Shown piece by piece: positions 2,578 to 9,074 of a stretch of 10,321 bases of DNA. The stretch is from contig JACCSL010000127.1 in NCBI GenBank assembly GCA_013812995.1, positions 1-10,321 on the forward strand, read 5' to 3'. Under the pieces are notes generated by a model that worked only from the letters and a program-made list of their open reading frames with translations, was not told the DNA's origin and did not search any database. The stretch comes from Ardenticatenales bacterium (lineage in GTDB: Bacteria > Chloroflexota > Anaerolineae > Ardenticatenales > Ardenticatenaceae). A program made the position numbers and the translations under genes. The first letter of the stretch is position 1; every line of letters begins with the position of its first letter.

Positions 2578-2655
2578 CGCCACGCAGAGCCATGACTCCA
2601 CCACATATTCCAGCAGAACCAGCCACATAGTACGAGGCAATGAAAGGAGTCCTTG

Positions 2656-3420
2656 TCAACGCCCCAGCAGCCAGAGGAGTCGTTCCAGTGGGTAGAGCAG
2701 CATAAGCAGCGCCAGATCCAGGACCGCCGTGATGATGAAGGCAAAGGTAAGCCAGGCCGCGCCGCCCAACACCCAGAGGCTAGCCTCGGTGGGCACCTGG
2801 GGAATGCCGATGATGAGGTAGATCAGGACGCCGATGGCGGCCACAAAGAGCAAGAGCGCGGGCCAGGCCTCGCGATCACTCGGGCTCGGCATCATGGCAT
2901 TGGCGATGGCAAAGAGGGCATAGAGGAAGAACCACGCGTTGGGCACCGCAAAAATCGTGGGCAGGGCATAGAGGAGCGGCAGCACCCCCTCGATGCCGAG
3001 CACCTCGATGGCCGGGATGGGCAGGGCAAAGGCATAGCGCGCCAGCGCGGCGACCACCGCACTCCCGATGGCGAGCGGGGCCACGCCGATGAGCGAGCGG
3101 CGCACGATGTCGGTGCGCTCTACCATGACATGGCCGAGCACCATATTCCCCTGCTCGTCTACCCGGCTGGGAATAAGGTGCGGAAACTGGGCGTAGACAC
3201 CGAGGAGCCGCGCCACGATCCAATGCGAAAACTCGTGCAGGACGGTGCCCGGCCAGACGAGCAGCGCATAGAGTAGCATCGAAACCGAGAGATGGTGGGT
3301 GATGCGATAGAAGAAAGCCAGCAGCACATAGGTGACCATATAGTGCATGATCACCAGCAGGGCGAGCGCCACCACGAAGGGTAGCCAGGGAGCGAGGGCG
3401 GGCGGTAGGGGTAGGATCAT
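2656..3420 (-). CDS. Polytopic membrane protein with HExxH motif, M50-like putative metalloprotease
   Basis: A 254-residue hydrophobic protein with roughly six to seven membrane segments. Residues 60-67 read VLHEFSHW, so HEFSH (62-66) is a zinc-binding HExxH inside or at the edge of a membrane helix. Further on, NAMMPSPSD (174-182) provides an Asp in an N-x-x-P context, comparable to the NxxPxxDG second zinc-ligand motif of M50 site-2 proteases. Both features together suggest an intramembrane zinc protease-like protein, although the second motif differs from the classical form and activity is unproven. The ATG at 3420 is preferred; a TTG at 3456 would begin inside a heptamer repeat. No strong Shine-Dalgarno is seen for either. 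It stands alone, convergent with the phosphoesterase. Its substrate and partners are not evident from context. Confidence 0.75.
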   Translation of the reverse strand: MILPLPPALAPWLPFVVALALLVIMHYMVTYVLLAFFYRITHHLSVSMLLYALLVWPGTVLHEFSHWIVARLLGVYAQFPHLIPSRVDEQGNMVLGHVMVERTDIVRRSLIGVAPLAIGSAVVAALARYAFALPIPAIEVLGIEGVLPLLYALPTIFAVPNAWFFLYALFAIANAMMPSPSDREAWPALLLFVAAIGVLIYLIIGIPQVPTEASLWVLGGAAWLTFAFIITAVLDLALLMLLYPLERLLWLLGR

Positions 3421-3670: not shown

Positions 3671-3677
3671 TACGAGG

Positions 3678-3727
3678 TGCGCCCCGCTGGGGCGAACGGC
3701 AACCGTCGTTAGCCCCAGCGGGGCGCA
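3678..3727. repeat. Perfect 16-bp stem with 18-base loop inside the MITE
   Basis: The arms tgcgccccgctggggc (3678-3693) and its exact complement (3712-3727) enclose an 18-base loop that itself contains aacgg/ccgtcgtt-type complementarity. It is extremely GC-rich. If transcribed it would form a very stable hairpin, and it may be a pre-existing repeat captured by the element. Confidence 0.75.
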
Positions 3728-3745
3728 TCAGATAGCCCAGCGATT

Positions 3746-3771
3746 CGCCTAAAGCGCCCGCCTAAAGCGCC
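3746..3771. repeat. Tandem 13-bp direct repeat
   Basis: Two exact adjacent copies of cgcctaaagcgcc (3746-3758 and 3759-3771) lie inside the miniature element, followed by two near-copies of gttggtatc/gttggtact. No function is apparent. Confidence 0.7.
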
Positions 3772-3926
3772 TACCGTTGGTACTGTTGGTATCGCAGGGC
3801 GGGCATCACCTATGAGAGACTTTCCTCCCCATAAAAGATGTGGGTAAGGATTAGCCCCACTCCGCAGGGCGATGCAGATTTTTGAACGGCCCGCCGCAGT
3901 CCGGGGTGGGTTGCCGTAGCTGACCG

Positions 3927-6226: not shown

Positions 6227-6315
6227 GGTTGGCTATCCAAAGATTGAAATCCCCGATAGAATGCCGCGTGTGCCGCACCTGTCTTCGCTATCCAATAATT
6301 GACTGGAGAAGCCCT

Positions 6316-6580
6316 GTCAGCAACCCACGGCTAGAAGCCGTGGGCTTGTAGAAACAAGCCCGTGCTGACCATTGCCTAAGCCCTGCAAGGGCTACGTTAT
6401 CCTGGTCATGATACCTTGGGGTACTTGCCAGCCCCAAGCTCTATCGCCTACCGTTAAACAGTCTGAGGGTCTAAGACAGTGCGGTAGGTGCAAAAAGCTA
6501 GCATAACTTTGGCGAGGCACACATTACCCGCGCAAGCGGTGGTGGCTCAGGGGGAGCCCGGTCGAAAGATAAAATCCCCC
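6316..6580 (+). ncRNA. HEARO / IscB omega-RNA-like structured RNA, orphan
   Basis: This non-coding stretch is packed with complementary arms in order. GTCAGCA (6316-6322) pairs with TGCTGAC (6363-6369) and encloses CCCACGGCT/AGCCGTGGG (6324-6332/6336-6344) and CTTGT/ACAAG (6345-6349/6354-6358). Then come AGCCCT/AGGGCT (6379-6384/6388-6393), CTTGGGG/CCCCAAG (6415-6421/6432-6438), CGCCTACCG with CGGTAGGTG (6445-6453/6482-6490, one G-U), CCGC/GCGG (6528-6531/6536-6539) and GGCTC/GAGCC (6544-6548/6554-6558). The 3' part (ggcgaggcac... ggctcagggggagcccgg) resembles, from memory, HEARO RNAs that guide IscB nucleases. In such loci an IscB gene normally follows on the same strand; none does here. The guide would be the bases just 5' of 6316. 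An alternative is a subterminal end of an IS200/IS605-type element. Boundaries approximate. Confidence 0.6.
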
Positions 6581-6704
6581 TACTCTATACCATAATCCCC
6601 CTATCACCAGAAAGGAGAAGCCAGGGTTTGGTTTGGCAAGGCTTTTCAGTGCCGCGCCATTCCTCCCACGCATGGACTGCTGTGGGTTTCCTGGCGCTTA
6701 CCCT
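6581..6704. other. Leader between ncRNA and CHRD gene; possible alternate TTG start
   Basis: This spacer carries an imperfect direct repeat, aatccccctact at about 6574-6585 and aatccccctatc at about 6594-6605, then AAAGGAG (6611-6617). An in-frame TTG at 6633 lies 15 bp after that motif, longer than optimal. It would extend the CHRD protein by 24 residues ahead of its signal peptide. No separate gene is seen. Confidence 0.35.
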
Positions 6705-9074
6705 ATGACACCAACCCTATTGATCTTACAACGCTCGCGCCTGTTCCGTATGGCAGCCATCGTTTTGGGCGTAGCCGTCGCCCTTCTACTGACGCTGCGG
6801 CTACCTTCGGTAGTTCAGGGCTCAAGCGCGGCCAGCGTACCCACGACCAACCCGATCTTCGAGGCGCAGTTGAGTGGGTCCAACGAGGTTCCCGCCGTCG
6901 ACTCAATGGCGGCAGGGCAGGCGATCCTCATCCTGGACGAGGATATGACGACGCTTCACTATCGCTTGTTCGTGGAAAACATCACGGACATCACAGCCGC
7001 TCATATTCACCTGGGCAATCCGGGGGAAAACGGCGGCGTGATCTTCCCGCTCTACACGGGCGGTGGCTCCTTTGCGCCAGGTAGCCCCATCAGCGGAACG
7101 CTCACGCTCAATGCCACGCAGCGCGACGATCTGGTGGCCTGGCGATATTACATTAATGTCCACACCTCGGCCCATCCTAGCGGCGAGATTCGTGGTCAGG
7201 TCGAGGCATACATACCACCAAGCCGGATGAGTGCGCTGCTCAAATTCGATTCGCCCGAGCAAAACTCGCTCCCCCTCCGAGAGTTTGGGGTGGGTCATTT
7301 TACGCTCGTCAACACGAACACGCTGGAATACGATCTTGGGGTCAGCAATGTCATGAGTATCACGGCAGCCCATATTCATAAGGGCGCGCCTGGCCAGGAT
7401 GGTCCCGTTGTCCTGCCCCTTTACAACGGAACAGGCCCCTTTGATGCCGATCACCCTATCTCCGGCACGCTGACGCTGACGGCCCAGAATCTACTTGATC
7501 TGCTCACGAATCATTTTTATGTAAACATTCACACGGTGGATTCTCCCGCAGGGCGGGTGCGCGGGCAGATCAACACAGGTATGCCCGAGCTCCTTGTGGC
7601 TTCCCTATCCGGGGCGGCGGAGGTGCCGCCGCGCGACACGCATGCCTCGGGTCATGCCATTCTAGCCCTCAGCGGAGACTTGCGGGGGGCTTACTATCGC
7701 GTGACGGTCAGCGACATCATGAGTATCACGGCAGCGCACTTTCATAAGGGTGCGGTCGGGCAAAATGGCGGGGTGGTATTCCCGATCCACCAGTTCCCCG
7801 ACTTCTTTAGCCCTGACCATCCCCGCAACGGGAACATCGGCCTGACCGCCGATCAAGCTGCCGAGCTGCTGGGTGGGGAATATTACATCAACGTTCACAC
7901 CTCCAGGTACCCAAGCGGCGAGATTCGCGGTCAGGTTCACCATCAAGTCATGCCTGGCAACTTCAATGCGCTGCTATCTGGAGCAGAGGAGGTGCCAGCG
8001 GTAGAGAGTGAGGCGCTCGGCGTTGCCCGCTTCCACACGATGTACAACAGCGCGCTTGCGAATCCCCGTCTGGAACTTCACTACACCCTTGCGGTGACTG
8101 ACATCACAGGGATCACGGCAGCGCACATCCATGTTGGGAGCCGGGGGCAAAACGGCAGCGTGATTTTTGGCCTTTTTGATGGCACGGGTGCCTTTGATCC
8201 CGATAACCCCATCAGCGGGACGCTGCCCCTCGCCCATCACACCCTGATTGAGCTATATACCGGCAAATACTACGTCAATGTTCACACGACGGCCCACCCC
8301 ACAGGTGAGGTTCGCGGTCAGATTGGCCGCGCGCGCCTCTTCGCCGCGAGATTGAGTGGGGCGAACGAGGTTCCGGCGGTCAACACACCCGCCACCGGCT
8401 GGGCGCTCCTGGCCCTCAATGATAGTGCAACAATGGTTCAATACCACATCACACTCAACCATATAACAAACGTCACGGCGGCCCATGTCCATCGCGCCCC
8501 GGTGGGGCAAAACGGCGGGGTGATCTACCCGCTCTTCAGCTCCACTGCCTTCACCCCGACCGAACCGGTGAGAGGCAGCTATAGCTTCCTCACGGATCAG
8601 AGGCTCTTCGAGATGCTGAAAGGAGATCACTATATCAACTTCCACACGACTCAGGTGCCAAGCGGCGAGATTCGCGGCCAGATCGCGCGGTACGAGCTTC
8701 CCACGAGGGAGTTCGTGTCCTGGCTTCATGTGACAAATCCTGTGACGACAAGCGCCTCCGGGCTGGCGCGCTTCAGGCTCGACCCGGAGCTGAATGTGCT
8801 ACACTACGAGGTCGATGTGCAGGGCCTTGACGGTATCACCTCGGCTGCCCTGGAACAGGTGACCCCGATGGGCAACATTGAGCTGCACGACCGGCAAGAT
8901 ACCTTTAACGCGGAGACTCCGCTGACAGGCAGCAGGTTGCTTTACTCGCACCAGCTTCTGGAGTTGATCGCCGGAGCCACCTCGCTCCGGATTGGTGTCA
9001 GCGCCAACCCGGTCAACGAGTTACTAGGCAAGGTTCTGCCGCTGCGCGATGTATTCTTGCCGCTCGCTCGGTAA
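6705..9074 (+). CDS. Secreted protein with six tandem CHRD domains, the last degenerate
   Basis: A 789-residue protein beginning with a signal peptide: basic QRSRLFR, hydrophobic AAIVLGVAVALLL, and probable cleavage near VQGSSA (about residue 42). The rest is six units of about 120 residues, starting near residues 52, 175, 296, 420, 546 and 669. Units 1-5 carry the CHRD hallmarks: LSGxxEVPxV, an ITAAHIH-type strand, GENGGVIFPLY, ISGTLTL and a closing YYINVHTxxxPSGEIRGQ. CHRD was defined in chordin; bacterial versions occur in secreted proteins, and the function is not established. Unit 6 keeps the fold outline but loses the paired histidines (TSAALEQ, LRIGVS). There is no cell-wall anchor or C-terminal sorting signal, so it is presumably released or periplasmic. 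ATG 6705 was chosen because it begins directly at the signal peptide. A strong terminator follows, so it is likely monocistronic. Confidence 0.92.
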   Translation: MTPTLLILQRSRLFRMAAIVLGVAVALLLTLRLPSVVQGSSAASVPTTNPIFEAQLSGSNEVPAVDSMAAGQAILILDEDMTTLHYRLFVENITDITAAHIHLGNPGENGGVIFPLYTGGGSFAPGSPISGTLTLNATQRDDLVAWRYYINVHTSAHPSGEIRGQVEAYIPPSRMSALLKFDSPEQNSLPLREFGVGHFTLVNTNTLEYDLGVSNVMSITAAHIHKGAPGQDGPVVLPLYNGTGPFDADHPISGTLTLTAQNLLDLLTNHFYVNIHTVDSPAGRVRGQINTGMPELLVASLSGAAEVPPRDTHASGHAILALSGDLRGAYYRVTVSDIMSITAAHFHKGAVGQNGGVVFPIHQFPDFFSPDHPRNGNIGLTADQAAELLGGEYYINVHTSRYPSGEIRGQVHHQVMPGNFNALLSGAEEVPAVESEALGVARFHTMYNSALANPRLELHYTLAVTDITGITAAHIHVGSRGQNGSVIFGLFDGTGAFDPDNPISGTLPLAHHTLIELYTGKYYVNVHTTAHPTGEVRGQIGRARLFAARLSGANEVPAVNTPATGWALLALNDSATMVQYHITLNHITNVTAAHVHRAPVGQNGGVIYPLFSSTAFTPTEPVRGSYSFLTDQRLFEMLKGDHYINFHTTQVPSGEIRGQIARYELPTREFVSWLHVTNPVTTSASGLARFRLDPELNVLHYEVDVQGLDGITSAALEQVTPMGNIELHDRQDTFNAETPLTGSRLLYSHQLLELIAGATSLRIGVSANPVNELLGKVLPLRDVFLPLAR

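Follow-up and report, generated by a model that had tools for sequence, protein, structure and literature searches.

This contig of an Ardenticatenales bacterium (JACCSL010000127.1, referred to as C587), analysed over its full length of 10,321 nucleotides and called the window, carries an omega-RNA-like sequence with no nuclease gene beside it. The locus raises the question of whether such an RNA is a guide that is used in trans or what remains of a transposon that has lost its gene.

Identity and extent of the element

A search with the Rfam HEARO covariance model (RF02033) returned a match at positions 6316 to 6527 of the forward strand that runs from the first to the last position of the model (1 to 211) and scores 156 bits (E = 8.9e-34), above the gathering score of 83 bits. 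The likeness to HEARO/omega-RNAs that the initial annotation had drawn from the letters is thereby confirmed at full length. The stretch from 6316 to 6580 has a predicted folding energy of -113.1 kcal/mol (z = -4.57), and none of 200 shuffled sequences was as low. The stem GTCAGCA (6316 to 6322)/TGCTGAC (6363 to 6369), which closes a three-way junction around two hairpins (6316 to 6369, forward strand), is present as described; the count of at least eight stem-loops is not reached in the predicted fold, which has seven terminal hairpins, and the mapped HEARO structure has 11 helices. Both parts of the quoted 3' motif are found: GGCGAGGCAC...ATTAC forms the 3' terminus of the HEARO match and GGCTCAGGGGGAGCCCGG lies beyond the model, inside a hairpin of four unlinked copies of the element.

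The nuclease gene is missing, as had been reported: the contig contains no RRXRR (IscB) match and none of its 45 listed open reading frames is IscB-like by eye. The locus resembles the known HEARO/IscB omega-RNA in its full-length covariance match and its fold but differs from it, and from the autonomous IscB OMEGA system, in that no iscB gene follows downstream; a 31-nt hairpin and a transposon right end stand there instead. On the forward strand, the omega-RNA (6316 to 6527) is followed by a short hairpin CCGC-GCAA-GCGG (6528 to 6539), similar to one found before the IscB start in linked copies of the same subfamily, then by the 31-nt hairpin (6550 to 6580; outer stem GGGGGA/TCCCCC, inner GTC-GAAA-GAT), and finally by the right-end hairpin GCGCCATTCCTCCCACG...GTGGGTTTCCTGGCGC (6654 to 6697). 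Since this last hairpin belongs to the element, the locus does not end at 6580, as first placed, but at about 6704, while its start at 6316 stands. The whole non-autonomous ISC/HEARO element would span 389 bp (6316 to 6704, forward strand), with boundaries derived from comparison of its copies.

Directly after the element follows the ATG of a CHRD-domain gene (6705 to 9074, forward strand) that encodes 789 amino acids with six matched CHRD stretches. The left flank of the element reads GACTGGAGAAGCCCT; 7 nt ahead of the junction it contains GGAG (6305 to 6308, forward strand), probably the Shine-Dalgarno sequence that the CHRD gene originally used. The 16 nt directly 5' of the HEARO start (TGACTGGAGAAGCCCT, 6300 to 6315, forward strand) are the putative guide segment; its position and length are those usual for IscB omega-RNAs, in which the guide lies 5' of the RNA. 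No convincing promoter-like site upstream on the forward strand and no convincing terminator-like site was found at the element.

Two other features were noted in the window. The contig starts with a tandem array of CGTTGGAG (4.9 copies, positions 1 to 39), and positions 3675 to 3730 form an inverted repeat whose two arms are each about 25 bases long (GCGCCCCGCTGGGGC...GCCCCAGCGGGGCGC), where matches to Rfam MIR8622 and MIR918 (E = 0.37 and 0.74) lie far under the cut-offs and were set aside as chance matches to the inverted repeat. For the triosephosphate isomerase encoded in the window, the two best named matches come from a Dehalococcoidia and a Chloroflexi MAG (50 and 53%), with Elusimicrobia and Akkermansia next at 46 to 51%; taken alone, this protein makes Chloroflexota no more than probable.

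Copies with and without an iscB gene

The assembly (5.03 Mb in 1069 contigs, 83.6% complete, 3.96% contamination) contains a total of 26 HEARO matches, 20 of them above the gathering score, and 24 RRXRR matches, two of which (on C425) are probably pieces of one gene. The majority of the HEARO copies (17 out of 26) immediately precede an IscB match in the same orientation, and one more (C314) is followed by an IscB start that is cut short by the contig end. The other eight are unlinked: the window copy, single copies on C605, C94, C999, C753, and C729, and two on C580. The C729 copy is broken inside the RNA; within the C580 pair, insertion of one copy has removed the iscB side of its neighbour, and the inserted copy is itself cut by the contig end. 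Five of the eight keep both a left and a right end, at five loci, and measure 389 bp (window), 537 bp (C605, or 389 bp without a 148-bp insert), 442 bp (C94), 390 bp (C999), and 358 bp (C753).

Both ends of the window copy are common to full-length copies, which is what places it among ISC-type elements: its right-end hairpin recurs after iscB in IscB-bearing copies, and its right end can be aligned to the sequence that covers the iscB end and what follows it in C448, C637, and other copies. With four other unlinked copies that are two-ended at other places of the genome, this makes the non-autonomous transposon the better supported of the two earlier readings. Non-autonomous elements of the ISC and IS200-IS605 type (MITE or PATE type) keep their ends and lack the gene. 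The window element is like them in both respects and in its several copies, but differs in carrying a structured guide RNA, and its ends are defined by comparison only.

Some copies have in turn been altered by insertion. In the right-end hairpin of the C605 copy (L157, locus positions 638 to 794), two copies of CTTGCAAAG stand at a step of 148 bp, and the inverted termini ATACTGTTGGTAAATTC and ATGCTGTTGGCAAATTC nearly match; the insert has the appearance of a small MITE that entered another element and duplicated 9 bp of its target. At C580 (positions 2616 to 3079, L022 and L023) an omega-RNA element is inserted in the leader of another IscB element, at about the position of the iscB start as judged against L014; it occupies the same docking place, here in a sister element. 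A repeat of about 22 to 24 bp, CCAACAGTAGGCGCTTTAGGCG with small variations, occurs in eight of the 26 HEARO copies, either within them or at their 3' part (L009, L011, L013, L019, L020, L021, L022, and L026), and a related stretch lies between genes at positions 3746 to 3790 of the window.

When 41 genomes (this one and 40 relatives) were screened with stricter filters, HEARO was found only in this genome and in one other of the same class; none of the five relatives of the same family, all of other genera, had it. Within the few genomes sampled, this suggests a recent arrival or expansion.

Conservation of the fold was analyzed in an alignment of 13 of the 26 copies; the remainder are the cut C580 copy and 12 copies from more distant subfamilies. 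The omega-RNA fold is kept by two-sided changes among homologous copies. Standard pairs occupy 92.2% of the cells, compared with 84.7% in shuffles, and two-sided changes affect 21 pairs (shuffle mean 13.0) and 75 cells (shuffle mean 23.6, SD 4.1), with none of 500 shuffles as high. Controls in which the partner was slid by 1 to 3 columns gave three to five two-sided cells, in a comparison that favors the true register because the structure was mapped from the window copy. One of the five covariation measures, the number of further pair types, showed no excess (50 versus 49.0, with 208 of 500 shuffles as high). In all scorable rows, three of the mapped pairs fail to pair, a sign of small mapping faults. 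The initial annotation had named a missing HEARO match and missing compensatory changes as the results that would speak against it; the match is strong, and compensatory changes are present in the homologous copies.

The unlinked copies differ from the linked ones in what follows the RNA. IscB-linked copies continue to the iscB start, whereas the window, C605, C94, and C999 copies continue with GTGGCYCRGGGGGAGCCCG, an A-rich stretch, and CCCCC. These form the 31-nt hairpin, with an outer stem of the GGGGGA/TCCCCC type, an inner stem, and a GNRA loop, the inner stem-loop being GTC-GAAA-GAT in the window and C605, GTC-GAAA-GGC in C94, and (by eye) GCT-GTAA-AGC in C999. The hairpin is absent from all 18 IscB-linked copies, and among the loci searched no further one contains the GTGGCYCRGGGGGAGCCCG motif with up to three mismatches. 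Because the C999 copy belongs to another omega-RNA subfamily (a split with 100/100 support, the bootstrap not being settled), the hairpin was either gained twice or exchanged. The C753 copy, of a third subfamily, lacks it. Exact matches among 400 genomes of the phylum were confined to this genome (three places), 21 other genomes of the phylum have places with two mismatches, and no match was found in viral contigs.

A comparable layout exists elsewhere in the phylum. Two large genomes of one other genus, in another class (G395 and G390), contain 12 copies of a different tail (nine and three, respectively), ten of which extend over all 134 query bases and two over 121 and 117. Each adjoins a HEARO match by its coordinates, and in the three of the 12 that were read in sequence (L161, L162, and L169) a strong hairpin and a right-end-like hairpin stand in the place of iscB. 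The hairpin sequence differs from that of the window element. Altae-Tran and others reportedly described stand-alone omega-RNA loci in Ktedonobacter racemifer in 2021; the likeness lies in an omega-RNA without iscB in an IscB-rich genome. HEARO RNAs that lack iscB, as in Ktedonobacter, are an already known kind.

The strongest rival explanation is an inert relic, a recent deletion derivative whose RNA is not used and whose fold has been kept only by the short time elapsed. The iscB gene could indeed have been deleted recently at this locus, and decay is visible in the broken C729 copy and the 148-bp insert in the right end of C605. Against this, the window copy retains standard pairing in 62 of 66 mapped model pairs, much like the other aligned copies (59 to 62 of 65 or 66), whereas the broken C729 copy retains 50 of 60; its right end is kept; and one hairpin is common to four unlinked copies from two omega-RNA subfamilies. 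With RNA fold and right end both looking intact, the relic is not favored and is considered unlikely.

Insertion sites and start codons

A fixed-pattern scan of the loci in this genome gave 34 rows, 22 with and 12 without a hairpin by a crude test. Two of the 22 rows describe a single place (C391), and L046 is no right end, so that 20 right ends remain. In 19 of them an ATG or GTG lies 4 to 6 nt after a shared GCTNA; 15 of these start codons open at least 60 codons, two run off the contig, and two give short frames of 26 and 6 codons. For comparison, an RTG that opens at least 60 codons lies within 12 nt of 9.7% of random positions in these loci. Among the 12 rows without a hairpin, three (L027, L037, and L072) are right-end-like and also have an ATG at 4 to 5 nt, one (L035) is a shifted match in a right end already counted, and eight are not right-end-like. 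The list is incomplete because the pattern misses right ends that begin with TTTCCTCC, of which there are several. The gene after the unlinked copy at C605 position 4182 encodes 50S ribosomal protein L34 (rpmH, NCBIfam), and another right end at the start of C605 is followed by methionyl-tRNA synthetase (NCBIfam). Two cases go against the pattern: at C999 the frame from the start codon is a mere 41 codons long, and no start codon follows the C391 right end. The right ends of this genome mostly abut start codons, whereas the three G395/G390 copies read share no start-codon position.

A run of at least four letters of AAGGAGGT occurs within the 15 bases at -18 to -4 in 14 of the 26 copies and is absent from 12. 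The corresponding frequencies at the same loci are 18.7% at random positions (binomial p = 6e-5), 19.6% before any ATG, and 26.5% before 362 GTCARC words, a milder contrast for which no p value was computed. Read together with the ATG, the left flank therefore has the look of an ordinary ribosome-binding site split by the element. Such runs were also found in 10 of 26 HEARO loci of four other genomes, a count without a control of its own. According to Weinberg in 2009, HEARO elements reportedly integrate before ATGA or GTGA; such a target motif may itself explain much of the start-codon placing, and selection against insertion inside genes may account for the remainder. Some right-end subfamilies (for example at L086, L090, L091, and L092) have GGAG 9 nt before the start codon (CTGGAGCTAACGTCTATG; GGAGCTAACGTCTATG) and could bring a replacement for the split ribosome-binding site; the window's own right end (CTGGCGCTTACCCTATG) has no GGAG before the start codon.

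The position on the coding strand between GGAG and ATG would make the element part of the CHRD 5' leader, as a domesticated regulatory RNA that controls this gene would require. However, the sister copies precede unrelated genes such as rpmH, which marks the position as an insertion preference, and no conserved counterpart of the CHRD locus was found in the 40 relatives; such a role is very improbable. An empty site was sought by way of the CHRD protein, and none was found: among the 40 relatives, five other genomes match at 40 to 50% identity over parts of the protein only, and a search of wider genome contigs gave nine stretches with the CHRD pattern, none confirmed as a relative.

A proposed guide RNA in trans

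The preferred reading, and a likely one, is a MITE-like ISC element that is non-autonomous and carries an omega-RNA for an IscB encoded elsewhere in the genome. The best-scoring IscB-linked omega-RNA, on C637, is 84% identical to that of the window over 221 bp, and that of C448 is 86% identical over 174 bp. The C637 IscB (428 amino acids from MNKVF) matches the whole NCBIfam guided_IscB model with 450.5 bits (cut-off 175), has relatives that include solved IscB structures, and is unbroken by eye in its HNH and RuvC motif regions; this protein, from the same omega-RNA subfamily as the window copy, looks complete. PADLOC returned only weak matches of it to PtuB models, which were rejected. Further IscBs of the group are found on C448, where the frame apparently changes near the end, and C667. 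Because IscB genes of the same omega-RNA subfamily are present in the genome, it is plausible that the window omega-RNA is a guide served in trans. The genome also contains nine Y1 transposase matches, and a pattern search places a similar right end near only one, a broken piece of 64 amino acids. One study states that few HEARO nucleases adjoin a TnpA gene (PMC9755519), which would fit a transposase supplied in trans.

The element keeps a left end with the complete omega-RNA and a right-end hairpin, with a short conserved RNA hairpin in the place of iscB; under the preferred reading, a transposase encoded elsewhere would move it. Each insertion would supply new flanking DNA as the guide at the omega-RNA 5' end; at this locus the CHRD ribosome-binding region would take that part. 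For TnpB, the guide records the insertion site, copies of the site without the element are cut, and the motif that TnpB needs is the insertion motif of the transposase (PMC11870625). An IscB from full-length copies would likewise load the window omega-RNA and cut element-free copies of the site, and repair from an occupied copy would restore the element. The predicted target is the 16-nt left flank followed by ATGACACC, so that an element-free CHRD allele would read ...GAGAAGCCCT and then ATGACACC; the occupied site would escape cutting, since there the element lies between the guide match and the adjoining target motif (ATGA...). The guide has one perfect match in the genome, at its own locus. 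Three further places with two mismatches were rejected as targets, the backwards control also giving three, and no viral contig contained the guide followed by RTG.

An assembly or binning artefact, in which an IscB-bearing copy was collapsed, would suit the fragmented assembly but is next to impossible given that the flanks of the five unlinked copies differ, that four of these copies share the hairpin, and that the layout recurs in the two large assemblies of another class, which consist of few contigs.

Among the literature matches listed for IscB and HEARO, none concerns start-codon docking or a special hairpin of stand-alone copies, and both may already be in print. A broader proposal, that stand-alone omega-RNAs are recurrent streamlined IscB transposons with a dedicated 3' hairpin, start-codon docking, and a gene-drive-like hold, is tentative and in its entirety rather doubtful. 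If it is true, the dedicated hairpin, whose sequence differs between the two lineages, shapes or stabilizes a free guide RNA at its 3' end, and in this genome the elements insert between a ribosome-binding site and its start codon, at rpmH among others, while the guide aims IscB at any element-free allele of the gene. A host that lost the element from an essential gene would then suffer a cut there, which amounts to a gene-drive-like hold on the host. The locus is a small natural example of how a single IscB might be shared by several separate guide RNAs; the likely protein, the likely target, and the sister copies are all named, and the hairpin of the unlinked copies together with the start-codon placing could explain how such elements persist without harm to the host.
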